The position numbers and the translations under genes were made by a program. From NCBI GenBank assembly GCA_019114755.1, contig DXEW01000032.1, positions 1 through 35,855 of the forward strand: a DNA stretch of 35,855 bases. Reading direction: 5' to 3'. The notes beneath the pieces are model-generated. The model worked only from the letters and a program-made list of their open reading frames with translations, did no database searches and was not told the origin of the DNA. Shown piece by piece: positions 3,241 to 35,697 of the stretch (positions are counted from its first letter, which is position 1; the number at the start of each line of letters is the position of its first letter). The stretch is from Candidatus Borkfalkia faecavium. GTDB lineage: Bacteria > Bacillota > Clostridia > Christensenellales > Borkfalkiaceae.

Positions 3241-3352
3241 GATTTGACCTCCTGATCGCGGCCTGAAAAGGCACGGGTTTTGGTTACAAATTGGGGATGA
3301 AAGGCGGGAGAACGATACGCCGCCCTGTGCGCGCACGCCCCAACATTTTTTA

Positions 3353-3382
3353 TGTAAAATGTAGAATGTAAAATGTAGAATT
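3353..3382 (+). repeat. Heptamer array H1 (4 units)
   Basis: Four tandem 7-bp units alternating TGTAAAA and TGTAGAA, ending in TTGAGGATGAAAT. It lies between gpsA and structured element C. The same units recur at 6373-6402, 13954-13983 and 31802-31843, always closing with AATT and an NNGGA-type flank. Confidence 0.9.
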
Positions 3383-3400
3383 GAGGATGAAATAAAACAC

Positions 3401-3617
3401 TTGCGCAAGCAAAACCACGCTTTTGCGCCCGCGCCCCCAATTTGCGCGACAGCGCTTTTGCAGGAAAGGTGAAGGCTGCGCGCGTTTTATAATAAGCGTG
3501 CCCTGAAAAGGCGCGCAGCCGAGGAAAACTCCGATTGCTCCGCCCACAGGGCGGACAATGGGGTTTTCCTAAAATCACGGAAAATCGCAGGCGTCAGCTC
3601 GCCGAGATTTTCGTGAA
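3401..3617 (-). ncRNA. Three-hairpin structured element, copy C
   Basis: Read on the minus strand. Hairpin 1 (3616-3575) has TCACG/CGTGA and AAAATC/GATTTT stems around the loop GAGCTGAC. Hairpin 2 (3570-3522) has AGGAAAAC/GTTTTCCT, ATTG/CAAT and CCGCCC/GGGCGG stems. Hairpin 3 (3520-3474) has a 10-bp stem GGCTGCGCGC/GCGCGCAGCC around a loop containing TTTTCAGGGCAC and TATAAAA, then TTCACC. A tail hairpin GCAAAA-gcgtgg-TTTTGC lies at 3426-3409. The element begins nine bases after the recR stop codon on the same strand, so it is probably transcribed as a 3' extension. It is homologous to copies A (13723) and B (31195). Function is unknown; it may be an RNA or a mobile DNA hairpin element. Confidence 0.6.
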
Positions 3618-13543: not shown

Positions 13544-13576
13544 GGTCTGTGCCCCCGGTCGGTTTGTTTACAGGAT

Positions 13577-13648
13577 AACCAAGTCAAAGTAAAACGGACC
13601 CGCCCTGAAAGGCGCCTTTTGGGGAGGGCCCTCTTTGCTCTGACTTGC
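13577..13648. mobile_element. Short inverted-repeat element, internally deleted relative of 31355-31637
   Basis: The left end AACCAAGTCAAAG and the next roughly 30 bases match the left end of the 31355 element almost exactly, through CCGCCCTGAAAGGCGCC. The right end, read inverted, is GCAAGTCAGAGCAAAGAGG. Only about 72 bp remain, so most of the interior is missing. It lies upstream of minD. Confidence 0.6.
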
Positions 13649-13722
13649 ATATATTGTACATCGTTGCGGCGGAAAAATCTTGCCTGCTTACGCCGAAAAA
13701 GGGGAAAATTTGGCAATAACGA

Positions 13723-13930
13723 TTCACGAAAATTCTTTTGAGCTGACAAAAGAATTTTCCGTGAGAAAGGGGGAAACCTGCCGTTCGCCGTCCTTCGACG
13801 GCTCTGCGGCGGTTTCTCCCCTCTGCGGCGCAATATTTCAGGGCACACCTTTTATAAAATTGCGCCGCATTCACCTCCATCCGTATGCTCATAAGGGAAA
13901 AACGGCAAAAGTGTGATTTTGCCGTTTTTT
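13723..13930 (+). ncRNA. Three-hairpin structured element, copy A (uninterrupted)
   Basis: Hairpin 1 (13724-13764) is TCACGAAAATTCTTTT with its complement and one bulged C, around the loop GAGCTGAC. Hairpin 2 (13769-13821) has outer GGGGGAAACC/GGTTTCTCCCC, middle CCG/CGG and inner GCCGT/ACGGC stems. Hairpin 3 (13825-13868) is GCGGCGCAAT/ATTGCGCCGC, its loop holding TTTCAGGGCACAC and TTATA. TTCACCTCCATCC follows, then a tail hairpin with a 12-bp stem (13899-13910 with 13917-13928), loop GTGTGA and a T run. The tail looks like an intrinsic terminator, so an RNA of about 200 nt is possible. It lies opposite in strand to minD and pgi. No known RNA family was recognised. Confidence 0.65.
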
Positions 13931-13953
13931 CGTATTTGTTTTGAGGTATCCGC

Positions 13954-13983
13954 AATTTTACATTCTACATTTTACATTTTACA
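13954..13983 (-). repeat. Heptamer array H3 (4 units)
   Basis: On the minus strand, three TGTAAAA and one TGTAGAA in tandem, closing with TTGCGGATACC. It directly follows structured element A. Confidence 0.9.
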
Positions 13984-14041
13984 TCCGCCCGACATTTTCT
14001 CCGAGCGGACTAAAGACCCACCGATATCCGATCTTCAAACA

Positions 14042-14070
14042 CAAAAAACAGCCGCGCCTTACGGCGCGGC
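14042..14070 (-). terminator. Rho-independent terminator of pgi
   Basis: On the minus strand, GCCGCGCC and GGCGCGGC form an 8-bp stem with a GTAA loop, followed by TGTTTTTT. It lies about 50 bp after the pgi stop. Confidence 0.8.
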
Positions 14071-14120
14071 CTTGGTGCAAAGAAAATGAAGGTACCTGCA
14101 AAGCGGCAAAGGGAGCCGTT

Positions 14121-15548
14121 TTACACGATATACTTGTCTTCGGCGGCGGGGGCGCTGTCCAGCTCGGCACGCTTGGCCTCGTATCCCTTTTTGCCGAGGA
14201 GCGCAAAGGTCGCCTGCTTGCCTGCCTCCACGCCCGGCTGGTTGAAGGTGTCGATGTTGAACATGGCGCCGGCATACGCCGTCTGCAATTCAAACAGGTA
14301 CATCAATTCGCCCAGGGTGAATTCGTTGACTTCGGGCAGCCAAACGGTATAGCTCTGGCGGCCTGCCTTGGCGAGCGCGTACGCCGTGGCCTTGTTTTCG
14401 GCGGCGATCAGCTCGTTCATCGTATGCCCGCCGAGGAAGGAGACGTCGGGGATGTCTTCACAGCCGTGCGGGATGGGGAACTCTTCGCGGTAGTTTTTGA
14501 CGGAGAGGAAGGTGACCACCTTGTCGAACGGGCCTTCGGTATACAGCTGCACCTGCGAGTGCTGGTCGGTGACGCCCAGCGACTTGACGGGCGTCTGCCC
14601 CACGTTGCAGGGCTTGCCGTCTAAGGTGACGTTTTTGCCCAGGCTCTCCGCCCACAGCTGGCAGTACCAGTCTGACATGGTCTTCAGGCTGTCGGCATAC
14701 GGCATCATCACGCCGACGTTTTTGCCGCGATTCATCGCCATCACCTGCAGTACGGCGCAGGCGAGGGCGGGGTTTTTGGCGATGGAAGGCTTATTGCACA
14801 CGCCGTCCATATACGCGGCGCCCGCGAGCATCGCCTTGATATCCAGCCCCAGCACCGCCGCGGGCAGAAGGCCGACGGGGCACAGCTCCGAGAACCTGCC
14901 GCCGACGCCGTCGGGGATGTAGAAGGTCTTATAGTTATGCTGTTTGGCGAGCTTGATGAGGTTGCCCTTGGCGTGGTCGGTGGTGGCGATGATGTTCTCG
15001 TTCGCCTTTTCGCCGAGGACTTTGTTCAAAATGTCGCTGATGATGAGGTACTGCGCCATCGTCTCGCTGGTGGCGCCCGACTTGGTGATGACGTTGAAGC
15101 AGGTCTTTTCCGGCTCGATGACGTCGAGCAACGCCTTCATGCGCTCGGGGTCGACGTTGTCTTCCACATAAAATTTAGGGCCGCGGCGCTTGGAGGGCGC
15201 GAGGTCGTTGTAATGCAGGTGGCACAGGGCGTTGAACACGGCGATGGGGCCGAGCGCGCTGCCGCCGATGCCCAGCACGACGAAGTATTTGAACTTGCGG
15301 CGCACCTCTTTGGCGGTGGCGATGATGTCTTCGACGATCTCTTTCTGGTTGTACGGGAGCTCCGTCCAGCCCATCATGCCCTTGCCGCGGTGCTCGGCAA
15401 CGTAGTTGAACGCCTGCGCGGCGCTCTCCTTCATCTCTGCCAGTTCGGAATCTTTGAAGCCGTCGCTGCCGATGAATTTCTTCATCATGTAGTTGTAATC
15501 GACGGTCAGGCGCATGCTGGAGCGCCACTCTTTGTTCCTCGTATTCAT
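14121..15548 (-). CDS. pgi: Glucose-6-phosphate isomerase
   Basis: The 475-residue cytoplasmic enzyme interconverts glucose 6-phosphate and fructose 6-phosphate in glycolysis and gluconeogenesis. The sugar-isomerase fold shows VVLGIGGSALGPIAVFNAL and, further on, FNVITKSGATSETMAQYLI, the phosphate-binding SIS block. GGRFSELCPVGLLPAA and the C-terminal QPGVEAGKQATFALLG are also typical of the bacterial form. Length fits. ATG at 15548 follows GGAGG by seven bases. It has its own promoter and terminator, so it is a single-gene unit. Confidence 0.96.
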   Translation of the reverse strand: MNTRNKEWRSSMRLTVDYNYMMKKFIGSDGFKDSELAEMKESAAQAFNYVAEHRGKGMMGWTELPYNQKEIVEDIIATAKEVRRKFKYFVVLGIGGSALGPIAVFNALCHLHYNDLAPSKRRGPKFYVEDNVDPERMKALLDVIEPEKTCFNVITKSGATSETMAQYLIISDILNKVLGEKANENIIATTDHAKGNLIKLAKQHNYKTFYIPDGVGGRFSELCPVGLLPAAVLGLDIKAMLAGAAYMDGVCNKPSIAKNPALACAVLQVMAMNRGKNVGVMMPYADSLKTMSDWYCQLWAESLGKNVTLDGKPCNVGQTPVKSLGVTDQHSQVQLYTEGPFDKVVTFLSVKNYREEFPIPHGCEDIPDVSFLGGHTMNELIAAENKATAYALAKAGRQSYTVWLPEVNEFTLGELMYLFELQTAYAGAMFNIDTFNQPGVEAGKQATFALLGKKGYEAKRAELDSAPAAEDKYIV

Positions 15549-15641: not shown

Positions 15642-15856
15642 CACTTGAATAAAAATTCAGAAAATATTTTATCATTTTTTCAATATTTTGTGCAGAATGG
15701 ATAGCATACCGCGCCCAAAACGGGCACGCCCTGCGCAAAACGGCCGCATGGCTGCTTTCGCGGGGAGAGGGCGGCGCAATGCAGATGCAAGACGCCGCCG
15801 CATTGATCGGAAAAGCCCCGCTTTACGCGGATAAAACCGCGCGCCCTGCACGGACA
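15642..15856. other. Spacer between the giant gene and the pgi promoter
   Basis: No gene is supported here. An AT-rich patch (15642-15710) adjoins a GC-rich part with several short stems, such as CCGCG-TAAA-GCGG followed by CTTTT on the minus strand near 15816-15838. These may help end transcription of the giant gene. Confidence 0.4.
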
Positions 15857-15884
15857 GAGCCGCGCGCCTTACGGCGCGCGGCTC
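15857..15884 (-). terminator. Strong stem-loop after the giant gene
   Basis: GAGCCGCGCGCC and GGCGCGCGGCTC form a 12-bp perfect stem with a GTAA loop (minus strand), 20 bp after the stop. No T run follows, so it may stabilise the message end or act as an imperfect terminator. Confidence 0.5.
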
Positions 15885-15903
15885 CCCCTTTGCCTTATTG
15901 CGC

Positions 15904-18900
15904 TCATTCGGCCGAGGCGGAGTTTTCGTCTCCGCCGGCTGCCTGCGCGTTTTCTGCCTGTAAATTTTCATCCTGCGCGGCCGCCGCGGCTGCCTGCGCG
16001 GCTTCTTCGGCGCGTTCTGCCTTGGCGGCGTCTTTGCGCCACAGTACCAGCAAGACGACGTCGGCAACGAGGAGCACCGCCGCCGCCACCGCCAGCGCCG
16101 CGATCAGCGAGATCTGCCACACGGGCACCGCAAACAGCAGCCCCGCGGGCGCGAGCGCGTAATTTTGGCGCTCGTCTGCCGCGCCGTCCGCCCCGCTCTC
16201 CGCGCTCTTCTCCGCTGCGGCGATGCGCGCGCGGGCGTCGTGATCCTTTTTGGCAAACACGACGAGCAGCGCGATGAGGATGAGCAAGAGGATAAAGAGC
16301 AGGATGATCAGCCACAGCAGCGAGTGCATGGCGAGCGTCACTTCCCACGCCAGGGCGATGTCGCCTGCGATCTGTTCGCCCTCGGCGAGGTCTGCCCAGC
16401 CGTAGTTGTAGATGTCTTTGAGGGAAACTTGCAGCACATAGGTGCCTTCGGCGTCCGCCGCCAGCAGCAGCTGCTGCCCTTCCATGACGAGCTGCGTGCC
16501 CTCTTCCGCCGTGAAGTCCATCAGCGCGCCGTCGTAACCGGTGACGGCGATGCGCACTTCTTCCCCGTCGTACACGGAAGAGGCGGTGCGCCCGCCCGTA
16601 TCACCCAAAGTGGGCGCGGCGACGAGCCTGCGGGCCACGGTGAAGGATGCTTCCGCTTCAAACGAAGCGTACCCTGCGGCGGAGATGTGCGCCGTCACCT
16701 TGTAGCTGCCCGCCTTGGAAGGCGCGGTGTCGCTGTTCCAGGCGGTGCCGTCGTTGGCGGTGCCGCTGTAGCGGTAAGAAACTTCTGCCCCTGCGGGCGC
16801 GCCCGTGAGCACGGGACTGTTGGGCGCCTCGCCGTACGTCCAGCCTTCGATGGTAAGGCGGACGGAATCGGGCGCGAGTGTGCCTTGGGTGATGGAGAAA
16901 CTGTCGGAAGCGCTGCCGCCCTGATAGTTCGCCGTCTGGGCAAAGGTGACGGTGAGCGTGTAGCTGCCGACCTGCGTGGGCGGCTGGCTGCCGCTGTAGC
17001 CTTCGCCCGCGTAGCGCACGGAGGTGATGGTATCGCGCATGGAAGCGGGAGACACGGTGTAGCCGTTGGGGCTTTCGCCGAACGCCCAGCCTTCGATGGA
17101 AACGGACACATGCAGCGCCGCCCGCGCCACGGTGAAGGAAGTGCTCGCGCTGCCGCCGAGGTAGTTTTCCGTTTCGGCGACGGTGACGGTGAGGGTGTAG
17201 CTGCCGGCCTCTGTGGGAGCCTGCCCGCCGCTATACGCCGCGCCCGCGTTGGTGGTGCCGCCGTACACAGCTTCGATGGCGCCGCCGCCCGGGTTGCCCG
17301 TCACGGTGTAGCCGTTTGCGCTCTGGCCGTACGTCCAGCCATGGATGCTGACGGCGGGCGAGATGGCCGCCTTGGCGACGGTGATGGTCACCTCGGCGTG
17401 CGCCGCCTTGTAGTTGCAGCTCGCCGCGGCGTCGACGGAGACGACTTTGCCGTCGCCCTCGGAAACCGTCGTAAATGTGTTATTGGAATAGACGAGCGCC
17501 GATTCGCCGTGGCTGAGCACCGCGCCGCCCTCGACGCGCTGCAGCGCGCCCGTGTAGGTGTACTGCGTCTGCACGCCGGAAACGTCGATGAACGCCTCCG
17601 CCCGCTCGATGGTCATTTCGACGGTGATATTAGCGTTGGAAACGTCGTAGTCCTGCGTGTCGATGCGCACGCCGACGGTATAGCTGCCCGCGTTGACGGG
17701 AGCCTGCGCCGAGGCGTATGCGTTGCCCGCGTTGTCCTTCCCTTCATACCAAAGGGTGATGCCCGCGGGAACAGCGATCTCGCCGCCGCCCACTTCTTTG
17801 GCGATGAGCACCGCCGCCTTGGGCGCGCCGCTGTACACGAGGTCGGCAGGCAGTTCGATGGAGAGCTCGATCGCCCGTTCGCGAATGGTATAGGTGCCGC
17901 CGACGAGGGTGAGGGCGTAGTTTTCCGCCCCTTCGCCCGTGACGGATATGTAGATGTCGTATGCGCCCGCGGCCGTGCCGGGAACGCGCGAGAGGGAGAC
18001 CTCTACCCTGCCCGCCGCCTCGTCTGCGGCAAACACTTCTGCCGCCTCCGAAGGAGCGAGGGTATAGGTGAGCGTCTGCTCCGCCGCACCCAGCGCCGCG
18101 GAAATGTCGTCCGCGGTGACGGTAACGGGCAGTTTGGCGATAAAGATCTGCGCCGTGGTGTTGGAAAGTTCGTAGTTTTTCAGCTCTGCACCGATGACGG
18201 CTGCAACGGTATAGGTGCCGAAATCCTGCAATGCCTGCGGCTGAACGGACAGGACGATCTCTTCGCCGCCGACGCCGATAAAGCTCGGCTGCACGGAAGC
18301 GCTCTGATCCTCTCCGTTATAGGTGAAGGAGGTCTGCCCCCAGTTCACCGCTGCCGCGAACTTGCGCACGGTGTACTCTTTCTGCGCGCCCGCGACATCG
18401 CCGCCCGCGAGCATATAGTTTGCAAGGTCGACCGCAGCGCCGCTTTGATCGCTTGCGCCCGCGACGGTGAAGGTGTATTCGCCCGCGTCGGTCATTTCAT
18501 CCGCGCCTTCGAGGGCGAGGTCGATATGGCTGTTGCCTGCGCCGATGAAGTACGCCCAGACGTCGCCGCTGTGGTCCTGCTTATCGTAGGTGAAGTCGTC
18601 TTCCGCCCAGCGGATGGTGACGGTATACGGCTCGATGACGAGCGTGCCCGTCAGTTCGTAAGCGGTCTCGCCGCCCGCAAAGGTGTAGTTTGCGCCTGCG
18701 GTGAGGGTTGCGGTCATGGTGTAGGTGCCCGCATCCGCCTCTGCCGCGCTCAGCGCATAGGCGACCGTGCCCGTCGCGCCCAGCGCGCCGCCGCCGATGC
18801 TGCCGCCCGCAGCGGCGCTGCCGTTTACGGTGAGCACGAGGCCGTGCGCCTGCCCGTCGTAGGTGAGGGTCATATCCGCAAAGGCGAGGCCGCTCACGTC

Positions 18901-21900
18901 GTAGACGCCCGGCTGTACGGTAAATTCATGATACTCGGAATATGCGGCGGGGAAGTTGTCGCTGGCGGCTTCGGCGCGCACGCGGTAGTCGCCCGCGTTC
19001 CATACGCTGCCCGTGAACTCGACCCAGCTGCCGCTTTCATCTTTGACTTCAAACAGATAGGTGATATTGACGGAGATCTCGGTGCCGCCGATGGCAGCGA
19101 CGGAACCGCCCGCCGTGACGCTCGCCGCCGTCTCGCCCCAATGGGTGATGCTGACCTGCGGCAGGCTGACGGAGATATCTTCCGCCAGCGCCTCGACGAT
19201 GCGCCAGGTGCGGTCCGTCGTCATGTTGCCGTAGCCCGCCGCGCTCGACTGCCAGAGATAGTTGACGTTGCCGATGATGAGGGTGACGCGGTAGCCGCCC
19301 ACTTCCGTGCCGCTCTCCGCCGCGACGGAATAATCGAACAGGTCATACGCGCTGCCCGTGCCGGTAAAGCGGGTATCCTCTTTGGTGAGCGTCTGCGCCT
19401 GCCCGGTGTACGGCAGGTCGTCGATCTCGACCAGGCCGGGGTCAACGAGCATAGGGCTGACCTTATAGATATACGAAACGTCGCCCGCCAGCACATAGTT
19501 GCCGCCCTGCAGCGATACGGTGACAGTATAGCTGCCCGCGTGCATCTCGTTCGTCAGCGTGCCATCCGCGGTCCAGCCGTCGTCGGCGGTGCCGGTATAG
19601 GTGTAGAGGAAGTTGAGCACATCGATCGTTTCGCCATTGACCAAACCGTCAACGGCAGTTACCGCTGCGGATTCAAACACATCGTCTCCGAAGGCCGCGC
19701 CGGGGCTGTCAAAGCCCGTGATCGTAATTTCTTTGGGAACGATCTCCAGCGTGCCCGTCTGGATGCGGGTCACGTCGTAGTTCTGCAAATTCTCTGCGCC
19801 CGTCACCGTGACGATATAGCTGCCGACGTTCCATGCGGACGGTTCATTGCCGTCTGCATCCAGCAGCGCGAACATCATATTGGCTTCCCAATCTGCTTTG
19901 TCGTGCACTTCGATGAAGTCGTCGCGCAGGTCGTCGCCGTCTATGTCGTACACGGCTACTTTGCCGAAGCCGTATTCGGTAGGTGTCGGCCGCTGACCGT
20001 CATAGGTATGGGCGCCCGTCGCCTCCCCTACGACGATGTAGACGGAGAGCTTGTCGATATAGAAGGTCTCGCTGAAGGTGCCGGACAGCGTATAGTTTTT
20101 GGCGTTTTCATCGCCCGCCTTAAAGCCCTCCACCGTGAAGGTGTAGCCGCCTTCTTGATAGTTTTTGAACTCCTGCACGCCGACTTGCAGCTCGTGGATG
20201 CTGCCGCCGAGGCCGTAGTACGCCTTGACGACGTCAAACTGATCTTCACCGTTATAGGTATAATGCCTTTGCACCGTCCAGGTGACACCCGAAATGACGG
20301 CTTTGTCGATGGTGTACTTCTGCGTGAGCGCGTTGCCGCCCGCGGCGAAGGTATAGTTGTCCGCATGGCTGCCCGTCAGCGCAAAAGTCGCCGTCACGGT
20401 ATGTGCGCCCGCGTCCGTGCCGTTGCCTGCGGTCACTTCGTAACCGACGAGGCGCACGCCGCTCGGCAAGTTGCCGGCGTCTTCGAGGCGGGGATACTGC
20501 ACCTGCCCGTTGTAGACGTATTCGCCGACGGCGAATTGGATATCATCTATATAGTTATGAATATCAAACTCCGCCTTTGCAATGGTCCAGGTGAGGACGG
20601 TCTTTGCCGTATCGGGGCCGTCTTTCCATTCGTAGTTGTCGGGATCTTTGATGCCCAGCGTTATCTCGTATGTGCCGGCATTTTCGGCGTAGAGATACGA
20701 ACTGCCCCCTTCCGGATAATACGCCGCGCCCACGGTAGCGCCTTCAAAGCTCATGGTGACGGGATCGAACCCTGCCAAAAGCTGCTTGGTGACGTCGGGA
20801 TCGTACTCCGTTTGGATAAAGTCTGTGCCGCTGCTGCCGATGGTCGGGCGGGCAAGCTGCGCCTTGGCGATGACCCAGCTGAATTCTTCGTTCCACGAAG
20901 ACGCCCACTCGTAGTTGTCGGCATCCGCCAGTACATACGCGGCGGTGTAGCTGCCGGCATTGATGGCGCGGTTGCCCGTGACGGTAAACACCGTTTCCGT
21001 ACTGCCGTTTGCAAGTTTCACCAAAGCCGCCGTGCAGGTGGTTTCGTCCGCCCAATCATACGCGCCGATCTCTGCCTTGTACGTCTTGACGCCGCCGTCG
21101 TATGTAAACGAACTTTCAGCGCCCGCCTCAGGCACCGCCACTTGGAACTTTTCGATGGTGAATTTGGCGTACGCCTCGCCCATGGCGTAGGTGTCGTCGC
21201 CCGTCACCAGCACGCGCACCCAGTAGGTGCCCGCCTGCGTCGGCAGCGTGCCCATGACGTAAGAGAGCCCGTTTGCCGTATCTTCCGTGGCAGCGCCGTC
21301 GTCATAGGCGTAGGCGATCTGCACGTTGGAATTGTCGTCTCCCGGAACATGCGTCGCGGTGATGACGATCCGATCCGCAGCCCCCGCGCTTTCGCCGGGC
21401 AGGGCGACGGTGACGACGTCGCCGTACGTCCAGCCGTCTGCCGTGATCGTAACTTCGTTATTTGCCAGCGCCACGCTAAAGCTGACGCGGCACAGCTCTT
21501 CGTTGGAAGAAAGCGGGTTCATCCAGGCATAGTTGGCGCCGTCGCTCAATGCCAGCGTCACGTAGAAGGTGCCCGCAGTCGTATCGGCAAAAGTGACTTG
21601 CAGCGTCTTGTCTTGGCTGCTCACCGTGCCGAGCGTCAGTTCGGGCGCATACTCGTTGAGGCTCATCAACGCCGTGTCGTAGCCCGTCAGCGTGTTTTGC
21701 GTGGTGCCGAGGGGCACGTTCCGCTCTACCCAGCCGACCGTCAACACATGCTTGGAAACGACCAGCTGATGATGATCGGTAAGCGCTGTATAGTTCTTGG
21801 TGCCCGCCACCTCTACCTTGACGTAATAGGTGCCGGCGGGGGTATCGTTATTGAAGAAATCTTTCGCCTTTTCGTCGCCGTATACATACGGGTCGTCTTC

Positions 21901-24900
21901 CGTGCCGCTGCCGCTGCGGGAGCCGTAGTAGGTATAGCTCACCGTGCCGAACTCCGCCGCTGCGGGCGTGAAGCGGGAGCCTGTTTCCAGCCCGTCAAAG
22001 GCGAGGTTGATATTGCCGCCGCTTTCCGTGCCCTTGTATGCCCAGCCTGTATGTTCATAATGCTCCGTCCAGCCGTTTTCCGCCTTGGCGATGGTCACGG
22101 TGAAAGTGCCCGCCTTTGCCGCATAGCTCGTGACGGACGGCAGATAGACTTTGTACCAGACGGTATAGGCGCTGCCGGCGTCGTCTTTGACATCCGTCAA
22201 AGAGGTGATGGCGTCGCCGTTTTCGTCATTCAGACGGAACTCCCAAAGGAAGGGGTTGCCGTCCGTCCAATCGGCATTGACGGCGTAGGCGCCGAGCCCC
22301 AGCGTATTTGCCAGATCACCCAGACTTCCGTTCGGACCGTATTGCGCATCGCCCGTCAACAGCAAATAGTACGGCTCGCCGGTATATGTGACCGTGGCGC
22401 CGTCGTTTTTGACCTCGACCCGAATGCCGTCTGCGCTGACGACGATCTCGAACAGGCCTGCGTCGCCCGTGCCATTATAATCTTGAGAACCTATAAAGGT
22501 GATAGCGTAGTTATTATTCTCCGCCTTGCCGACGATGAAGTACTCGCCTGCGGGCGTTGTCGTACCGCGCGTGACCTCGTTTTTATCCGCATCGTAGACG
22601 GCGAGCGAATATACCTCTGTATCGCCGTTTACGATCGCCTCGCCCGTACCGCTCGCCAAAGCCGCGGTCGCCGTCAGCTGCGTATTAGCGACGGCGTCCG
22701 TGCCGTACACGATATCCGTCTTGTCGGCTATCGTCACGGCGATCGCGCGCTGCCCGACGGTCAGGCCGGCGGTGTCGGTAAAGGTGAAGGTGTAGTTGCC
22801 GACGCGAAGGGTGCCCGCCGCCGTATTGCCGAGCTGCATCTGCATGGTAAAGGCGCTGCCCGCTGCGGACGTCACGCTGTAACCTTCGGCGATGACGGCA
22901 AATTGCGTTTCGCCCAAAACGGACGCGAACGATTCGCCGTCTGCAAAGGCACTGCCCGACGTCCCTGCCGTGCCGCGGGCAAAGGTCACCGCATTTGCTG
23001 CGGCGGCAAAGTCGAACTGTGTGCCGTAGGTGGCGGTATATTCGTCTTGCGCAAATTCGATGGTCACCGCGCGGGAGTTGACGGTATACACGCCGTGGTT
23101 TGCCGACCCTGTGCCGCGGAAAGTGACGTCATAGTTGGCGTCGATGGCGTCGCCCTCTTCCGTGTCAGATCCAAAAATGTTATGACTGCCCACGGCGAGA
23201 TGGCCGCCCGTGTAGTCTTGGATATACAAATTGTACGGCTTAGCATCGCCGGGAACGATGGCGTCCTTTCCGCCATCCGTCCAGCCCGTGACCTTGCCGA
23301 GCGTTTCCGTCGCCGTCAAAGTTTTCAGCGCGTCGCCGTATTCGCTCGTCTTGTTTTCAATCGTCACCTTGATCGGGCGGGGGGAGATGGTATATTTTTG
23401 CGTGACAACACCGGGCAAAGCGTAGTTGCCGAGCGCATTGTCATCTTCCGCAAACGAAGCCGTCAGCGTATATTCTGCCGCGTCTTTCATCTCCGCATCC
23501 GGCGTGACCGCAAGCGCTATCGCATCGCCTGCCACCGGCTGATAGGTCGCGGAAACTTTGCCGCTCTGTTCTTCGCCGTTATATACAAGCGTGATCTCTT
23601 CATTCCAGTCGATCGTGACCGTATACGGCGTTATTGTGAACGTTCTGGTCGATTCCAGCCCCTGTGTGAAGTTCGGATCGTCAGAACGGGCGATCACTTT
23701 GTAGCTGCCCACGTTGACGGGGGCGTCGCTCGTCTCTTCGCCGTAAGCCCCTTCTCCCGTCTGCCTCTGATATGTGATAGTGAAGGAGACCTCCTCCGCA
23801 TTCTCGCCCTCGCCGTACTTGCCTGTAGCGGTAAATACCTTTTTCGTGCCGTCATATTCAAGGCTGTCAGGGTCGGTCCAATCCAAATTGCCGAGGACGC
23901 GCGCGACGATCTCGTACTTGCCGGCGTTATTGGTGCCGCTGCTATAACTGAGGCTGCCGCTGAAGGTCACGGCGTAATTGTCATTGCTCGAAGAGCCCAC
24001 GATATAGTAGACGCCGACATTCGTTTTATTGTCGGGAACGATCTGCGAGCCTTCCTCGTCATATACGGCCAGAGTGAAGACGCTGTCATTGCCAAATATC
24101 GGCGTTTCCGATACCCCTGCAGCGGGCTGCGTAAATGCAACGGTGTAAGCACTTGCATAGTCCCCCGCCCCGTCGCCGTACGTCTGCTGCACATCCTCGA
24201 TCGTCACGGTGATGGCGCGCGGGGAGACGGTGAAGCTACCGCTTTGCAGCGTGACAGTATAGTTATCAAGCTGCGGCGTGCTGCAATCGAAAGCGATATA
24301 GCCGCTTTCCGTCACGCCGTCGCCCGCGTTATATGTATCACCTTCGACAACATACGCCTGATAGCTCGGCACAAACGAGCCGAAGACGCTTTCCTTCGTA
24401 TCACTGCCGAGCAGCGTATCCTCTGCCGATCCGTCGATCTGCACGGTATAGCTGTTGATCGATGTATCCGCCGTAAAATCTTCACCATAGACGACAGAAG
24501 CATCCTTCGCCGTCAGGGTGAGTTCGGCGGGGGTGATGGCGATCTGCACGCTGCCCCTCTGCGCCACATGGTTGGGCGCGGAGACGTAGTAGTAGATGGT
24601 GCCGCTGTCCGCTACGTCGCGCACGCTGCCGATCTCGCTGCCGCCGCTTGTGATGGTGCCGTCTGCATTGAACGCCGCCGTGGCAAACTTCCAAGAAATT
24701 TCTTGCCCGTTGACGGAAACAGCCGAATTGACAATGTTGCCGTAGATCGACTCGCTGCCGCCCTCTTGCAGAGGATGTTCCACGCCGTCATATGTGCGCG
24801 AAACGCTTTCGTTGACGGAAACCGTCAGCTCCGCCGCCTTGACGGTGAGGGTGGCTCCTACATAAGAAATAGTATAGTTCGGATCATAGTCTTTTTCAAC

Positions 24901-27900
24901 GATCGAGATCGTGTACTTTACAGTATCGGACGAGATCGGGTCGAACTGCTCATAATCGGTCGTCGCCGTAACGCCCCAACCTTCGGCAGAATCATTGCCC
25001 AACAGCGTATCGTAACCGAAAGTAAACTGCGTAGGCGCTTCGTCCCCGTAGGTGATCTCATACGTGCCCGTGACGCTGATCGTCAACTCAGCCCGCGCAA
25101 TGGTGTACGTCTTCGCCGCAAGGTCTTTCGAAAGCGCATAGTTGCCGCTTTCTGTGCTCGCCGTAAAGGTATAGCTGCCGGCATCGGTAAACGCATCGCC
25201 GCCCGAAGTCAACGTAAGGCTGAAGAAGGCGTCCGCAGAAGACGACTGCACATAGCTGCCGTTTTCATAGCTATACGTATAATGGCGCGCGTAGACGTCA
25301 TTGTCCGCACTTGTGCCGTAGGTATAAGCCGAACCTTTATATGTGAACGACTTCTCGCTCCATGCAATGTCATCTTCCTTCAGCGTATAGGGAGAGATGG
25401 TGAAGGGGTTGGAATATTCATCCACGATCGGCGCATAGTTGTTGCTGGACGGCGCGCTGACATCGACGATCAAACGATATGTACCCGCCGTATCCGCCAC
25501 TTCTGCGGGAACAACGGAAAGCAGATAACTTGCATCGCCGGCGTCATAACTTACTTCATAGACAGTCGTCCATTGACCGCCTTCGCCCTGCCTTTGGTAA
25601 GTATAGGTGATGGCAGAGTCGTAGTTTTCAATGACGTCTTGCAGGATCTCCGTATCGCCGGAAAGGGTGGGAACGCTCGGCGTGCCCGTGCCGTACGTCC
25701 AACCGGAGATCGTTCCGATCGTGATCTCATACGTCGTGCCGGTGATCTGATACCAAATAAACAGCCGATTGCCGGAAACAACGTCTTGCGACTGTTCTGC
25801 CTGCTTCCAGACAAAATTGTCGCCGTCTTTCAGATCGATCGCGACGTAATAGGTGCCAAAGTCGTTGGGAGCCTCTGTGCCGACCTCTGTACTCGTCGTG
25901 CCCGCCGCATAGCCTGTAATGGTGTACAAATTCTGATACGCGGAAGGCACGCTCGTATCGCCCGCATTCAGATCGACGATGTTTGCCGGGGCCTTTTTAT
26001 TTCCGTCGTATTCCAGCTGCTGCTCGCCGACATCGACGCTCACCTCTGCCTTACCGATCGTCCAAGTGAGCTCTTTTGCGTCCGTGCCGCCGCTCGCCCA
26101 AACGAAGTTTTTCGTATCGGTAAGTTCAAGGGTGAAAGTATAGGTGCCCGCTTCGGTGGCGAAGAGACAGCCGCTCTCCTGCCCGTTTGCCTGAGAGCCG
26201 TAACCGCCTTCCGCAATGCCGCTTCCGGACGCGGAAACGGTCACGTTGAACGGCGTTCCGCTTTGCAGAGCCGTACCAAAGCCGTTATAGTTATCCCATT
26301 TCCATGTTTGCTGCGTGCCGACAAATTGACCGTTATAGCTGTATACAGACGTTTTTGCCAATTCATCCGGCAGCGAGACGGCGAAGGGATCGATCGTCCA
26401 TGTGCCGACCTCTTTGCTGCGCTGCGCCGTTGCAAAGTCGTCTGCCGCGCCGTTTTCTTTATAGTTGCCCTTCCAGGCAATGGTGGCGGTATAGCTGCCG
26501 GCATCCGTACCCGCACAGCCGTTGACTACGGTGAAATATTCGTTGTCTGCAAGATCGACCGAGAGATCGTCTACTGTCAGCACGACATCGACCGCCGCAC
26601 CCGTATAGGTGTATTCCTTATCGGAAGCAAACCCCACCGTCACGCCTTTTTGCGAGATGGTGAAAGAAACGCTTTCCGACGTATCCGCATTATAATTATC
26701 CGTTTCTTGAACGGAGGCCGTCAACGTATATTGCCCTGCGTTGACGGGCTTGACCTCTGGCCACGATCCCGATTGGGAATAAGAAGTATCCGTAACGCCT
26801 GTTACCGTATATATAACGGCTGCGCCGCTGTTGTTGCCGCTGACAGAGGGCACGACTGCGCTTCCGTCGTCATACGTCCAATTCTCGACCGTGACAGATA
26901 AATCATTATTTGCTTTGTTGATGGTGAACGCAAACTCGCGCTCTGCATCGCCGCCGTCCGCCCAGACAAAGTTTGTCGTATCGGTCAAAGACAGGGTGAT
27001 GGTATAGCTGCCCGCATCCGTCAGTCTGACGGTGCCGGCGGCTGCATCGGCGGCATCGGAAATGACCGCCTCCCCTTCTTCGACGAGAACGGAGATCGGC
27101 GCGATGTTATTCTTCCCGGCCGTCCACCCGGTAAAGGTATACGTCTGCGCGCTGCCGTCATAGGTATCATTCGGGTCGCTGCCGGTGGGGACGGAAATGG
27201 CAAGCGGCGCGACGCTCCAATCTACGGAATACTCCGCCGTCGTGCTTGCCGGCTGACCGCTGCCGCCTACAACACTTTCCTTCCACTGATAGTTATCGTT
27301 CAGCGTAAAGGTGACCGTGTAATCCCCCGTGACCGTCTCGGTGTTGCCCGAAACCGTATACGCCTCAGAACTGCCGTTCCACGCCGTCAGCGTATTGCCA
27401 TAATCGTAAGTACGCTGCGTTTGGATACCGCTCGGCAGATCGACCCCCTGCCTGGCGATGGTAAATTGCGCTTCGGCGACGGTATCGCCCCACGCACCGT
27501 CTTTATATGTACCGTAATTGTCGGTATTTTCGATCGTCGCCACGACGACGTAATCGCCGGCGCCTGCCATGGCGATATCTTCGACCGGTTCTCTGCCTGT
27601 GCCCGTGAGCCGATAATATGTATGGTTCGGCTCACCGAATGAAGCGCTGAATGACGGCTCCGAAGCGGTTTCTCCATACGTCCAGCCGCTTATGTTGACG
27701 GTAAGCTCGTTTTCCGCCTTGACGATGCGGAATGTGACCGTCGTCTTTGCAAAGGCGTCGCTGTTGTCAAAATCGGCGCCGCTCAACTCTGCCGTCTTGC
27801 CTTCCCAGCGGTAATTATTTCGAGCATCCAGCTGCAATACGACATTATAATTGCCGACATCTGTGCCGACCGCGTTCGTCACGATTTTATAACGGTTATC

Positions 27901-29757
27901 CAGGTCGTTCTCGTCTGCTGTGAGCGCCTTGCCCGTATACGCTTTATAGTTGAAAACCGTCTGCACGCCGTCGCTTGCGGGCGTGGTCTCGGTATACGGT
28001 GACACCTCTTGCTTGCCGATGATAAAGGGCACCGCCCATTCGGTATAGGAAGTGCCGTCGTCCGGCTTCATCGACGACGCGGCAAACCTGCCGTCGGCAG
28101 ACGCTGCGACGGAGACGTACACATAGTAATTGCCGGCATTCGTCGGTATGGTGGTGCCGATCTCACTGCCTTCTGCATCCAAAAAATGATAGGTGACTTC
28201 GCCGTCGCCATAATTGCCGGTGACGGTCAAGATATCCGTTTCGCCGACGGACAGGGTGCCGTTTGCCGTTTCGGTCACGTTGCCGCCATACGTCCAGCCG
28301 TCCTTGGCTTCCCCTGCGTCGTTTTCGGTTTCGCCCGTGAACGAAACGCCGAGGTCGAGCTCTGCCGGGATGATGGTGACGGTGTAGGTGATTTCACTCG
28401 GCGTTCCTTCGCCTACATTCCAATAGTATCCGCCGCTGATCGTAAGCGTAACGGTATATGTGCCAACATCCGTCAAACTCACCGTCCCTGCTGTATTATT
28501 GATTAAGTCTTCAGCGGAGAATTCATCATCTTCTGCCTTTTCGACAGATGTGATTTGCACAGCTTCATTATTAAACTGCTGAAAAGCTACAATCCAAGGA
28601 CTGCCGACAGCCTGACCTTCTTCATCGGCAGCAAATTGATATATCAACTGTAATTCTTCGCCGTAACGCCCCTCTGTCGTCAATTGCCCGTTGCTTGCAG
28701 ATAACGAAAGGGGTGAGTACGGGGTTTTGTTTAACTGTACCGTAATTACGCTGGAATCAACCGTTTTGCCGCATTCCGTATAGTGCAAAACCACTTGTTC
28801 TCTACCGCTCGGATGTGTCCAGTCAAATGCTTCTTTATCACTATCAAGTACATAACTATTCTCTTGATATGTATAATAATCTATCGCAAATTTACTGTTA
28901 TCCCATAAGACGGTGCCCATTCCGCCGTCTTCATACATCACTGTATAAGTGTATTCGCTGCTGATAGTAGTAAACGTGCTGCCAACATCCGTCGTTGCAC
29001 CCGTCGTAGAAATCACCAAAATGCTACTGGGATTTACAGCCTCAATACCTGTCACTGTTACCGTACAACTATTGACCAACAAATTTTCATTTCCGGTATA
29101 ACGGATAGTGACATCTTTATTATATTGTGTTCCGGAAACAGTATCACGCTCCGCAGACAGATCCCCCAAAAATTCTCTGTTCCCGTACATCTCTGTTCCG
29201 GGTACACCGTCTCTTACTTGCTGCACAGTCAAAGAATAAATCGTCAACCCGTTCAGATTACCGATCGGAGTATAAGACTTGACTTGCTCGTTCTCTTTAT
29301 CTTCATCGTAAGTTGCAGCAATTTTGACAATTTGGTTTGGATCGGGCGCCCACTGCACCGTGACGGTCGTGGTCGCCGTTTTATCGCTCGCGTCCTTGAC
29401 CGTAAGGGTAAATTCGGCCGAGGTACGGTTCCCGTCCGTGCCGAAATAGCTTTCGGGGAAGATGCCGTTTACCATAGTAACCTCTTCCCCTTCATATTCA
29501 ATGGTGAGGGTATACTCGTCCTCATCGATCGGCCTCGCCTGCCCGTCCGCCCCTACGCGCGTGACGGTGAGCATCTCTTTGATTTCGTCGATGGTGTTGA
29601 TATCATATATCTGCCCATCCACGGATGCAATGGCAAGGTCGCCCATTTCTGCCCGCACTTCTGCCGCAGGGCGCGCCAAAAGCACGCCGCCGATGGCGGC
29701 GCAGCACAGCGCTGCCGCGCAGATGAGCGCAAGGATGACCTTTTTTGCTCTTGTCAT
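15904..29757 (-). CDS. Giant secreted MBG/YDG-repeat surface protein with two C-terminal membrane segments
   Basis: The protein has 4617 residues. ATG at 29757 follows GGGAGG by about seven bases; a longer in-frame extension to 30000 is not protein-like. Residues 1-36 form an export signal (basic start, hydrophobic 7-28). Residues about 40-345 are a less repetitive Asp/Thr-rich region. From there to about 4440 the chain is made of some 40 repeats of two alternating kinds. One has FTYDGQ-like starts, AGTYTVT-like middles and NYxW. The other starts with GWTYGE-like motifs and ends with FTIAKA. These resemble the MBG and YDG bacterial surface domains in Pfam. Membrane segments lie at about 4478-4502 and 4544-4573, with a 44-residue Ala/Glu-rich tail. 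There is no LPXTG motif. An adhesion or envelope role is likely but not shown. It could be processed. Confidence 0.9.
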   Translation of the reverse strand: MTRAKKVILALICAAALCCAAIGGVLLARPAAEVRAEMGDLAIASVDGQIYDINTIDEIKEMLTVTRVGADGQARPIDEDEYTLTIEYEGEEVTMVNGIFPESYFGTDGNRTSAEFTLTVKDASDKTATTTVTVQWAPDPNQIVKIAATYDEDKENEQVKSYTPIGNLNGLTIYSLTVQQVRDGVPGTEMYGNREFLGDLSAERDTVSGTQYNKDVTIRYTGNENLLVNSCTVTVTGIEAVNPSSILVISTTGATTDVGSTFTTISSEYTYTVMYEDGGMGTVLWDNSKFAIDYYTYQENSYVLDSDKEAFDWTHPSGREQVVLHYTECGKTVDSSVITVQLNKTPYSPLSLSASNGQLTTEGRYGEELQLIYQFAADEEGQAVGSPWIVAFQQFNNEAVQITSVEKAEDDEFSAEDLINNTAGTVSLTDVGTYTVTLTISGGYYWNVGEGTPSEITYTVTIIPAELDLGVSFTGETENDAGEAKDGWTYGGNVTETANGTLSVGETDILTVTGNYGDGEVTYHFLDAEGSEIGTTIPTNAGNYYVYVSVAASADGRFAASSMKPDDGTSYTEWAVPFIIGKQEVSPYTETTPASDGVQTVFNYKAYTGKALTADENDLDNRYKIVTNAVGTDVGNYNVVLQLDARNNYRWEGKTAELSGADFDNSDAFAKTTVTFRIVKAENELTVNISGWTYGETASEPSFSASFGEPNHTYYRLTGTGREPVEDIAMAGAGDYVVVATIENTDNYGTYKDGAWGDTVAEAQFTIARQGVDLPSGIQTQRTYDYGNTLTAWNGSSEAYTVSGNTETVTGDYTVTFTLNDNYQWKESVVGGSGQPASTTAEYSVDWSVAPLAISVPTGSDPNDTYDGSAQTYTFTGWTAGKNNIAPISVLVEEGEAVISDAADAAAGTVRLTDAGSYTITLSLTDTTNFVWADGGDAEREFAFTINKANNDLSVTVENWTYDDGSAVVPSVSGNNSGAAVIYTVTGVTDTSYSQSGSWPEVKPVNAGQYTLTASVQETDNYNADTSESVSFTISQKGVTVGFASDKEYTYTGAAVDVVLTVDDLSVDLADNEYFTVVNGCAGTDAGSYTATIAWKGNYKENGAADDFATAQRSKEVGTWTIDPFAVSLPDELAKTSVYSYNGQFVGTQQTWKWDNYNGFGTALQSGTPFNVTVSASGSGIAEGGYGSQANGQESGCLFATEAGTYTFTLELTDTKNFVWASGGTDAKELTWTIGKAEVSVDVGEQQLEYDGNKKAPANIVDLNAGDTSVPSAYQNLYTITGYAAGTTSTEVGTEAPNDFGTYYVAIDLKDGDNFVWKQAEQSQDVVSGNRLFIWYQITGTTYEITIGTISGWTYGTGTPSVPTLSGDTEILQDVIENYDSAITYTYQRQGEGGQWTTVYEVSYDAGDASYLLSVVPAEVADTAGTYRLIVDVSAPSSNNYAPIVDEYSNPFTISPYTLKEDDIAWSEKSFTYKGSAYTYGTSADNDVYARHYTYSYENGSYVQSSSADAFFSLTLTSGGDAFTDAGSYTFTASTESGNYALSKDLAAKTYTIARAELTISVTGTYEITYGDEAPTQFTFGYDTLLGNDSAEGWGVTATTDYEQFDPISSDTVKYTISIVEKDYDPNYTISYVGATLTVKAAELTVSVNESVSRTYDGVEHPLQEGGSESIYGNIVNSAVSVNGQEISWKFATAAFNADGTITSGGSEIGSVRDVADSGTIYYYVSAPNHVAQRGSVQIAITPAELTLTAKDASVVYGEDFTADTSINSYTVQIDGSAEDTLLGSDTKESVFGSFVPSYQAYVVEGDTYNAGDGVTESGYIAFDCSTPQLDNYTVTLQSGSFTVSPRAITVTIEDVQQTYGDGAGDYASAYTVAFTQPAAGVSETPIFGNDSVFTLAVYDEEGSQIVPDNKTNVGVYYIVGSSSNDNYAVTFSGSLSYSSGTNNAGKYEIVARVLGNLDWTDPDSLEYDGTKKVFTATGKYGEGENAEEVSFTITYQRQTGEGAYGEETSDAPVNVGSYKVIARSDDPNFTQGLESTRTFTITPYTVTIDWNEEITLVYNGEEQSGKVSATYQPVAGDAIALAVTPDAEMKDAAEYTLTASFAEDDNALGNYALPGVVTQKYTISPRPIKVTIENKTSEYGDALKTLTATETLGKVTGWTDGGKDAIVPGDAKPYNLYIQDYTGGHLAVGSHNIFGSDTEEGDAIDANYDVTFRGTGSANHGVYTVNSRAVTIEFAQDEYTATYGTQFDFAAAANAVTFARGTAGTSGSAFADGESFASVLGETQFAVIAEGYSVTSAAGSAFTMQMQLGNTAAGTLRVGNYTFTFTDTAGLTVGQRAIAVTIADKTDIVYGTDAVANTQLTATAALASGTGEAIVNGDTEVYSLAVYDADKNEVTRGTTTPAGEYFIVGKAENNNYAITFIGSQDYNGTGDAGLFEIVVSADGIRVEVKNDGATVTYTGEPYYLLLTGDAQYGPNGSLGDLANTLGLGAYAVNADWTDGNPFLWEFRLNDENGDAITSLTDVKDDAGSAYTVWYKVYLPSVTSYAAKAGTFTVTIAKAENGWTEHYEHTGWAYKGTESGGNINLAFDGLETGSRFTPAAAEFGTVSYTYYGSRSGSGTEDDPYVYGDEKAKDFFNNDTPAGTYYVKVEVAGTKNYTALTDHHQLVVSKHVLTVGWVERNVPLGTTQNTLTGYDTALMSLNEYAPELTLGTVSSQDKTLQVTFADTTAGTFYVTLALSDGANYAWMNPLSSNEELCRVSFSVALANNEVTITADGWTYGDVVTVALPGESAGAADRIVITATHVPGDDNSNVQIAYAYDDGAATEDTANGLSYVMGTLPTQAGTYWVRVLVTGDDTYAMGEAYAKFTIEKFQVAVPEAGAESSFTYDGGVKTYKAEIGAYDWADETTCTAALVKLANGSTETVFTVTGNRAINAGSYTAAYVLADADNYEWASSWNEEFSWVIAKAQLARPTIGSSGTDFIQTEYDPDVTKQLLAGFDPVTMSFEGATVGAAYYPEGGSSYLYAENAGTYEITLGIKDPDNYEWKDGPDTAKTVLTWTIAKAEFDIHNYIDDIQFAVGEYVYNGQVQYPRLEDAGNLPSGVRLVGYEVTAGNGTDAGAHTVTATFALTGSHADNYTFAAGGNALTQKYTIDKAVISGVTWTVQRHYTYNGEDQFDVVKAYYGLGGSIHELQVGVQEFKNYQEGGYTFTVEGFKAGDENAKNYTLSGTFSETFYIDKLSVYIVVGEATGAHTYDGQRPTPTEYGFGKVAVYDIDGDDLRDDFIEVHDKADWEANMMFALLDADGNEPSAWNVGSYIVTVTGAENLQNYDVTRIQTGTLEIVPKEITITGFDSPGAAFGDDVFESAAVTAVDGLVNGETIDVLNFLYTYTGTADDGWTADGTLTNEMHAGSYTVTVSLQGGNYVLAGDVSYIYKVSPMLVDPGLVEIDDLPYTGQAQTLTKEDTRFTGTGSAYDLFDYSVAAESGTEVGGYRVTLIIGNVNYLWQSSAAGYGNMTTDRTWRIVEALAEDISVSLPQVSITHWGETAASVTAGGSVAAIGGTEISVNITYLFEVKDESGSWVEFTGSVWNAGDYRVRAEAASDNFPAAYSEYHEFTVQPGVYDVSGLAFADMTLTYDGQAHGLVLTVNGSAAAGGSIGGGALGATGTVAYALSAAEADAGTYTMTATLTAGANYTFAGGETAYELTGTLVIEPYTVTIRWAEDDFTYDKQDHSGDVWAYFIGAGNSHIDLALEGADEMTDAGEYTFTVAGASDQSGAAVDLANYMLAGGDVAGAQKEYTVRKFAAAVNWGQTSFTYNGEDQSASVQPSFIGVGGEEIVLSVQPQALQDFGTYTVAAVIGAELKNYELSNTTAQIFIAKLPVTVTADDISAALGAAEQTLTYTLAPSEAAEVFAADEAAGRVEVSLSRVPGTAAGAYDIYISVTGEGAENYALTLVGGTYTIRERAIELSIELPADLVYSGAPKAAVLIAKEVGGGEIAVPAGITLWYEGKDNAGNAYASAQAPVNAGSYTVGVRIDTQDYDVSNANITVEMTIERAEAFIDVSGVQTQYTYTGALQRVEGGAVLSHGESALVYSNNTFTTVSEGDGKVVSVDAAASCNYKAAHAEVTITVAKAAISPAVSIHGWTYGQSANGYTVTGNPGGGAIEAVYGGTTNAGAAYSGGQAPTEAGSYTLTVTVAETENYLGGSASTSFTVARAALHVSVSIEGWAFGESPNGYTVSPASMRDTITSVRYAGEGYSGSQPPTQVGSYTLTVTFAQTANYQGGSASDSFSITQGTLAPDSVRLTIEGWTYGEAPNSPVLTGAPAGAEVSYRYSGTANDGTAWNSDTAPSKAGSYKVTAHISAAGYASFEAEASFTVARRLVAAPTLGDTGGRTASSVYDGEEVRIAVTGYDGALMDFTAEEGTQLVMEGQQLLLAADAEGTYVLQVSLKDIYNYGWADLAEGEQIAGDIALAWEVTLAMHSLLWLIILLFILLLILIALLVVFAKKDHDARARIAAAEKSAESGADGAADERQNYALAPAGLLFAVPVWQISLIAALAVAAAVLLVADVVLLVLWRKDAAKAERAEEAAQAAAAAAQDENLQAENAQAAGGDENSASAE

Positions 29758-30035
29758 ATTTTTACCTCCCGTTTGTCTGTCTGCCGCACCGCATGGGGCG
29801 CGGCGGGTGCCTCGGCCGCGCGGGCCTTGGCAACGCCAAAATGAGCGACTGCCCTTTCGCTGTTTGGCAAAAAGAGCTTCGCTCCGCCGGTTTTCACCGC
29901 TTTTGTATTTTGCATCGCCCGCGGCCCGTCCGTTTTTGCAAGAGCCGCCGCGAAAAAGAAAAACTGTATGCGCCCGTAAACAGACGCCCGAGGCGGCCAT
30001 AGAAGGCGCCCCGTGCGGCGCTGCGGCCGTTATGC
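29758..30035 (-). other. Long leader of the giant gene
   Basis: About 280 nt between the likely promoter and the ATG, GC-rich and able to form several stems, for example GGCGGAGC with GCTC-type partners near 29875-29895. The frame of the giant gene stays open for 81 codons here, but the translated sequence is unlike protein and the ATG at 29757 has the good ribosome binding site. No known riboswitch was recognised. Confidence 0.45.
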
Positions 30036-31168: not shown

Positions 31169-31187
31169 TTCACGAAAATCTCGCCGC
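31169..31187 (+). repeat. Partial 5' end of the three-hairpin element next to copy B
   Basis: GTTCACGAAAATCTCGCCG starts eleven bases after the SH3-like gene's stop and repeats the first bases of the element. The full copy B then starts at 31195. This looks like a remnant of an earlier copy or a slipped duplication. Confidence 0.6.
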
Positions 31188-31194
31188 GAATGAA

Positions 31195-35568: not shown

Positions 35569-35662
35569 TTTTTGGAACGTGTATTTTGGGAAAATGCAGC
35601 CGCCGCGCCGCCCATAAAGCGCCGGCAGACGGCGGGGCAAATGTTTTTTGGAAAGAATAAGG

Positions 35663-35697
35663 AAAAGAGGCAAAACCGTCGTTTTGCCTCTTTTTTA
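35663..35697 (+). terminator. Rho-independent terminator of the propeller-like gene
   Basis: AAAAGAGGCAAAAC and GTTTTGCCTCTTTT form a 14-bp perfect stem with a CGTC loop and a T run. It lies about 95 bp after the stop. Confidence 0.85.

Follow-up and report, generated by a model that had tools for sequence, protein, structure and literature searches.

A three-hairpin interspersed repeat in Candidatus Borkfalkia and related Clostridia

Described structured repeats and the three-hairpin unit

The BOX elements of S. pneumoniae (boxA, boxB and boxC) are modular, structured and interspersed repeats enriched between convergent genes; in the portions of the BOX account drawn on here, about half of the sites are common to strains, BOX lies at the 3' end of 36 of the 58 genes that overlap it, and no IS with matching ends is described (PMC3049150). 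REP, according to excerpts of the literature, is a palindrome of 20-40 bp with a GTAG or CGTC tag (PMC3733652), and the GTAG and CGTC families of REP and BIME are palindromic, multi-copy sequences that form head-head and tail-tail dimers, some REPs being no more than 15 nt from a stop codon (PMC3733652, PMC12306157). MITEs such as RUP, NEMIS and Correia are characterized in extracts of two of these sources as short, non-coding, structured and patchy (PMC3049150, PMC3733652).

The repeat described here occurs as copies A, B and C in the window, that is, the whole 35,855-nt stretch of DNA analysed (Table 1). By analogy, it would appear to work most like pneumococcal BOX (PMC3049150) and REP (PMC3733652, PMC12306157), insofar as the excerpts cited portray them. 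Like BOX, it is a modular, structured, interspersed repeat with optional modules, in which hairpin 1 can join hairpin 3 without hairpin 2 and modules shuffle; unlike BOX, compared here by description rather than by sequence, it has many recombining stem types per hairpin and a terminator-like end. It shares with REP a position close to stop codons and the formation of dimers and arrays, but it departs from REP in size and tag: its unit is about 210 nt long, comprises three hairpins and a tail, begins at its 5' end mostly with TTCAC, and is not tracked by a Y1 transposase. It is short, non-coding, structured and patchy as MITEs are, from which it differs in that neither a target duplication nor a parent IS was found and in that each end is itself a hairpin.

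The initial annotation had described copies A, B and C as an element with a shared order of hairpins 1, 2 and 3, TTCAC(C) and a tail hairpin, and its sequence, coordinates and fold all hold. A spaced hairpin 1 pattern picks out these three copies and no others, 100 shuffles giving a mean of 0.00 matches. Folding energies are -96.9 kcal/mol for copy A (z -9.6 vs shuffles) and -95.1 kcal/mol for copy C (z -3.6), and a 15-pair terminator-like hairpin forms the tail of copy A. The copies score 139-145 bits with a covariance model, all three being among the 46 own-genome copies from which it was made. The reported identity of loop 1 applies to these three copies but does not extend to the wider family. 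Two copies do start less than 40 bases past a same-strand stop codon, as had been noted: copy C lies 8 nt past that of recR, and copy B 36 nt past the TAA at 31156-31158, with a truncated hairpin 1 in the gap. Copy A lies between pgi and a minD/ParA-like gene, both on the minus strand, to which it is antisense, and no sigma-70 promoter was found within window positions 13550-14130. A weak fourth model match on the plus strand at 15779-15888 (11 bits, E 0.047) is probably due to chance.

Table 1. Features of the three-hairpin repeat in the window
Feature	Positions	Strand	Description
Copy A hairpin 1	13723-13765	+	TTCACG ... loop GAGCTGAC ... CGTGAG; 3' arm with one extra C
Copy A hairpin 2	13768-13822	+	5' strand purine GGGGGAAACC, 3' strand pyrimidine GGTTTCTCCCC
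Copy A hairpin 3	13824-13869	+	TTTCAGGGCACACC and TTTATAAAA in loop
Copy A TTCACC and pyrimidine tract	13870-13882	+	3' of hairpin 3
Copy A tail hairpin	13896-13931	+	Terminator-like, T run
Truncated hairpin 1 just 5' of copy B	31169-31194	+	Read from sequence
Copy B hairpins 1-3 and TTCACC	31195-31346	+	Covariance model, sequence
Insert splitting copy B from its tail	31354-31639		Ends resemble terminal inverted repeats (read from sequence)
Copy B tail hairpin	31640-31682	+	blastn / profile matches
Copy C hairpins 1-3 and TTCACC	3468-3617	-	3' of recR stop codon
Copy C pyrimidine tract and tail hairpins	3401-3467	-	Sequence, folding
Solitary tail-like hairpin	35658-35694	+	Weak match, E 5.6e-6

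Distribution, genomic position and probable mobility

Copies A, B and C are three of 89 covariance-model matches in their own genome (E ≤ 1e-3; 150 of 1094 first-look candidates scored), where blastn with copy A gave 79 whole and partial matches at E ≤ 10. The covariance-model search of related Clostridia proposed in the initial annotation recovered more copies in the own genome, genus, family and order. With only part of the candidates scored and stricter filters applied in the family, order, class and G053 surveys, the model matched 24 of the 121 genomes from the family (E ≤ 1e-6), spread over 4 of 18 genera, and 5 of the 151 from the order (E ≤ 1e-4), the own genome being included in both counts. 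A scan of GTDB genome contigs with the hairpin 1 pattern found at least 109 loci, and 86 of the 109 listed have a profile match. Among the 80 titled loci listed, the 62 that match the profile all carry titles of Clostridia, Firmicutes, Borkfalkia or Gallimonas; the remaining 18 belong to other bacteria, as expected of chance pattern hits. Copies are widespread in one Clostridia genus (hits that carry a name being Candidatus Borkfalkia and Gallimonas) and patchy in further genera and families of the same order. One genome of another family, G053, keeps this layout but has other hairpins 1 and 3; a model of its own gave 74 matches in G053 and none in 40 other genomes searched, and among 391 class genomes it matched the own genome alone, under filters that lose weak matches. 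The repeat family is thus patchy, often high-copy, and in these surveys was found only inside the order. Copy A had no blastn match in plasmids and phages at E ≤ 1e-3, and a viral origin was set aside after none of four pattern hits in viral contigs was confirmed by the profile. A two-hairpin form, in which hairpin 1 is joined straight to hairpin 3 without hairpin 2, was seen in profile pieces at L083:5109-5218 and in L081, L087 and L123.

Positions relative to genes were counted for first-in-array copies with a called upstream gene, genes being called with a home-made ORF score that leaves some neighbours wrong. On these counts a same-strand gene lies upstream of 32 of 44 own-genome copies and 84 of 117 copies elsewhere, and an opposite-facing one upstream of about a quarter (12/44 and 33/117), copy A included. 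Hairpin 1 starts 1-16 nt past the same-strand stop in 17 of 32 own-genome and 62 of 84 other copies (79/116 in total), at median distances of 10 and 6 nt respectively, with 5 of the 84 overlapping the called gene. The next gene past the element lies a median of 489 nt (own genome) or 354 nt (others) from the hairpin 3 end, over all first-in-array copies for which one was called. Frames of 100 codons or more on the same strand end within 60 nt of 118 of the 213 copies with a hairpin 1 start, and 82 of these 118 begin 0-8 nt past the stop of their frame. Copies next to divergent genes start 1-30 nt from the called gene start in 3 of 12 (own) and 12 of 33 (others) cases, and seven more overlap; several copies adjoin, just outside, a ribosome-binding-like AGGAGG. 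A copy or piece lies in 31 of 107 gaps between convergent genes, 82 of 483 between tandem genes and 7 of 110 between divergent ones, fractions that are inflated because loci were chosen for holding copies.

Head-to-tail arrays (for example in L026 and L039) and tail-to-tail pairs between genes are both present, along with ten outward-facing hairpin 1 pairs spaced 0.7-4.5 kb apart. The tail-to-tail pairs often end TTCAC...GTGAA, and nine regions compared by eye had no consistent duplication. Truncated hairpin 1 stubs occur just 5' of full copies at L021, L022, L032, L030, L020 and copy B. A Pfam scan covered 20 of the 118 upstream proteins, including 15 chosen for recurring between loci; they are varied and largely housekeeping, with DnaA, SMC and tRNA synthetases among them and 3 of 20 without a family. 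A gene-specific function was rejected on this varied set, in which no role tied to particular genes is evident.

Occupancy of individual sites varies between species. The recR site holds a copy in three genus genomes (G000, G012 and G017) and is empty in 12, two further genomes being unreadable and two lacking a match to the gene. The pgi site holds a copy in the own genome alone among 19 genus loci; the neighbouring gene is mostly different among the sequences listed, and G015 keeps the pgi-minD pair without a copy. Neither a precise empty site nor a duplication of the target was found, the species being too diverged for a clean junction. Upstream genes recur across loci: 45 of 118 fall into 19 clusters at >40% identity and 34 at >70%, although these clusters may include paralogs, and such recurrence would also be expected from ancient vertical insertions or from a role at the genes concerned. 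Where sites are shared, hairpin 1 identity is 0.65 vs 0.68 for random pairs, the adjoining gene DNA being at 0.83 (21 pairs), and hairpin 1 is less alike than the gene DNA in 18 of the 21, a comparison in which some rows are off register and the pairs are not independent. Either these sites would have been hit repeatedly, or their hairpins replaced in place.

Taken together, the 89 matches, the patchy species range, the occupied and empty recR sites, the arrays and pairs, and the closeness of hairpin 1 to gene ends suggest that the element, with its three hairpins, pyrimidine tract and terminator-like tail, is probably a non-autonomous mobile repeat of the REP/BOX/MITE kind. Its copies would be spread by a putative trans-acting enzyme, would persist in short intergenic gaps where they do least harm, and might be transcribed as a 3' UTR with its terminator. 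A rival proposal is a retro-mobile or IS200/IS605-type (RAYT/REP) element moved by a reverse transcriptase or Y1 transposase. Its hairpin ends and stop-codon position do resemble REP as depicted in excerpts of PMC3733652 and PMC12306157, and Y1_Tnp is found in 10 of 16 genus genomes, the copy-rich G012 and G015 included. However, the Y1 transposase family (PF01797) is absent from the own genome, which is about 90% complete, and from G002, G008 and G009, which nevertheless have 8-18 blastn matches each, and it does occur in G001, G003 and G004, none of which has a blastn match. A Y1 transposase was therefore discarded as the mover for want of co-occurrence with copy number, as was a reverse transcriptase, RVT_1 being absent from 15 of the 16 genus genomes searched, the own one included. 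Neither search of the 16 genus genomes, for Y1_Tnp or for RVT_1, yielded an enzyme that tracks the repeat, and this explanation seems very improbable. Structured repeats in tandem would fit a catalogued Rfam RNA, the end of an IS or a site of integron type, but such an origin is also very improbable: no Rfam family reached its gathering score in the whole window or E 1 around copy A, in L026 three sub-threshold hits to plastid and microRNA families fall far short of the cut-offs, and no attC core was seen by eye. Nor was a version with an ORF identified outside the spans of the ten outward-facing pairs. The absence of a known RNA family, as first proposed, thus agrees with the Rfam search of the window. 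No description of this repeat appeared among the papers listed, and on that basis it is taken to be without prior description in print, as it is in Rfam.

Probable hairpin exchange and the pairing record

The hairpins of the repeat combine almost freely. In 46 own-genome copies, hairpin 1 arms of 21 types and hairpin 3 arms of 18 types form 40 combinations, vs 42.3 in shuffles, 10.8% of which are as low; hairpins 1 and 3 are near-unlinked (mutual information z 1.6), and hairpin 1 is weakly linked to hairpin 2, tract or tail (z 4.1-5.5). Near-identical hairpin 1 pairs make up 5.4% of pairs within species (118/2169) vs 0.8% between species (92/11859), and those within species have a hairpin 3 arm in common in only 6 of 64 cases; these counts cover loci with titles listed, take species from accession prefixes and draw many of the within-species pairs from the own genome. 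This near-free combination, with the divergence of hairpin 1 at shared sites, points to hairpins behaving as cassettes. Entire hairpins would be rewritten from other copies within the genome, or an arm from its partner arm, by way of the short conserved loops and linkers, and such rewriting would keep stems paired while their sequence changes. Chimeric hairpins, with arms of different stem types and a switch at or near the conserved loop, occur at L026:7341 and L027:11556, the former being consistent with exchange at the loop.

Exchange of this kind bears directly on how the paired changes are to be interpreted. The stems were said to differ while staying paired, and across the family 93.5% of stem cells are paired, a value reached by none of 500 shuffles, with covariation of 0.67 vs 0.10-0.21 for slid versions. 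The number of stem pairs with double changes (23) is matched or exceeded by 163 of 500 shuffles, and further pair types (33) are below the shuffled mean of 39.9. A single whole-hairpin exchange brings in many 'compensatory' pairs, so these statistics count one event repeatedly. Much of the compensatory change therefore looks like whole-hairpin exchange and not stepwise RNA evolution, and the step from paired change to RNA selection is weakened when hairpins are exchanged as units. A general caution follows, that strong 'compensatory covariation' can arise from whole-hairpin exchange and not from RNA selection, and the copies, numbering up to dozens per species in many species, provide a large natural set for the rewriting of palindromes without loss of pairing.

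Selection on an RNA made from one strand should leave more G-T than A-C pairs, as in a tRNA control from the same loci (12 G-T and 0 A-C in 143 pairs, from seven tRNAs only). The 680 cells of 68 distinct hairpin 3 arm pairs comprise 639 Watson-Crick, 6 G-T, 5 A-C and 30 others, and 95 distinct hairpin 1 arm pairs contain 13 G-T and 40 A-C, mismatches being undercounted since arms were kept if at least 6 of 10 pairs (hairpin 3) or 4 of 5 outer pairs (hairpin 1) were Watson-Crick; 33 of the 40 A-C lie in the outer five pairs of hairpin 1, where a bulged C can shift the register. The outer stem of hairpin 2 (52 distinct) has 14 G-T and 24 A-C, and G053 has 17 of 39 pairs with double changes and one one-sided cell. 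Over hairpins 1-3, 96 of 140 copies fold better as the antisense strand and 43 as the sense strand. When the hairpin 2-3 region is folded freely, G-U accounts for 261 of 4320 sense pairs (about 6%) and 221 of 4245 antisense pairs (about 5%), and the sense value leaves room for a role as RNA. Overall these data would favour whole-hairpin exchange or arm-templated correction at the DNA level, without ranking the two. The original reading of the paired change as the mark of selection on a folded RNA or a DNA hairpin is thus sustained as to the paired variation and weakened as to RNA, and its DNA-level option fits the G-T and A-C counts and the antisense folding at least as well.

Coupling of hairpin 2 to the pyrimidine tract

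A purine strand, its paired pyrimidine arm and a second, parallel pyrimidine strand have the geometry of a pyrimidine-motif triple helix. The ENEs of MALAT1 and PAN are triple-helix 3' elements in which a purine strand meets two pyrimidine strands near the RNA 3' end. Hairpin 2 and the tract that follows hairpin 3 are strongly coupled in our copies: the class of hairpin 2 matches the tract in 43 of 45 (mutual information z 24.6), and the intervening hairpin 3 is linked to either only at z 5-6, all z values of this coupling being inflated by relatedness. The tract of copy A (Table 1) occupies the site that, in other classes of hairpin 2, covaries with the purine strand; in the class of copy A the relation is indistinct. 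Purine strand and tract agree best in the parallel register (0.534 vs 0.454, z 7.2; 59 distinct sequences of 91 among 128 copies, the 37 dropped being outside the purine-strand pattern and mostly of the GGGGG class), vs z 4.6 and 4.2 for parallel offsets of -2 and -1 and at most 4.0 for antiparallel registers. Tested on 47 distinct cores, the parallel register reaches z 6.1, equalled in 0 of 3000 shuffles. Permutation of seven pairs, hand-picked from the 59 with contrary pairs left out, was as good in 22 of 5040 arrangements for the parallel and 312 of 5040 for the best antiparallel register. The tract mirrors the pyrimidine arm of hairpin 2 (z 4.0 at register 0; at offset -2, mirror z 3.3 and direct z 3.2), in a test of 72 of the 128 copies with some rows misregistered.

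A two-state switch in G053 holds in 18 of 18 rows, GAAAGA going with CACT and GAGGGG or GAAGGG with CACC, although 7 of the 18 were read from the alignment after being missed by the pattern and two linked states may equal one old event. There are exceptions: some pairs, the CACCCACTT classes for instance, break the parallel match, the GGGGGAAACC (GGGGG) class of copies A and B fits less than cleanly, some hairpin 2 classes have A in the tract, the commonest class has C in the purine strand, and the A at position 2 of the purine strand is opposite an A. Exceptions included, the coupling suggests a tertiary fold that would be triple-helix-like, and with it selection on a fold beyond plain junk; the initial annotation had not remarked on it. 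The likeness to ENEs is functional only, with homology unclaimed and the triplex deduced here from covariation alone; the copy set could also serve to test whether triple-helix formation is possible in a 3' UTR repeat of bacteria.

This coupling is part of the case for a functional, cis-acting 3' UTR RNA, in which hairpin 1 would stall at or shield the stop codon, a triplex of hairpins 2-3 and the tract would block 3' exonucleases, and the tail would terminate transcription. Many copies lie just past same-strand stop codons, the tail of copy A is terminator-like, the agreement of hairpin 2 with the tract is kept across an exchangeable hairpin 3, with parallel covariation and the G053 switch, and some G-U pairs are used in free folding, slightly more of them in the sense strand. 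Yet about a quarter of the copies, copy A among them, face the other way, G-T pairs hardly exceed A-C mismatches in hairpin 3 and are outnumbered by them in hairpin 1 and the outer stem of hairpin 2, the antisense strand folds better, the distribution is patchy with a variable recR site, and the CACCCACTT classes and the unclean GGGGGAAACC class detract from the triplex itself. On this evidence a 3' UTR RNA is a possible but rather unlikely explanation of the family. Similarly doubtful is a combined proposal that cassettes are rewritten in place across dozens of loci and built on a conserved purine-pyrimidine-pyrimidine triple helix that would guard or terminate 3' UTRs. A non-autonomous mobile repeat of the REP/BOX/MITE kind is the reading that we prefer.

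The window also contains a 4,698-aa open frame on the minus strand at 15904-30000, overlapped by a 3,578-aa frame on the opposite strand. No tandem array scoring at least 150 was found in this region, and of two parts of the longer frame that were scanned, the N-terminal one gave nothing and the C-terminal one gave MBG domains (PF18887); the frame may encode a giant surface protein. The 286-bp insert that separates copy B from its tail starts with AAACCAAGTCAAAG, ends with CTTTGGCTTGGTTAA, and looks like a separate small inserted repeat. A second repeat with inverted ends, AACCAAGTCAAAG ... GGACCCGCCCTGAAAGGCGCC, was seen within copy B at the position of this insert, beside copy A (about 13578-13650) and at L024:9017, and gaps of similar length, possibly due to the same repeat, split copies at L025:16661-16942, L027:8540-8816 and L027:17226-17506. 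Runs of TACATTCTACATTTTACATT follow many tails (in the window at 13955-13984 and about 3350-3390), as does a repeat GATCCTTCG...CAGGATGACA, and the intergenic regions are mosaics of several repeats.
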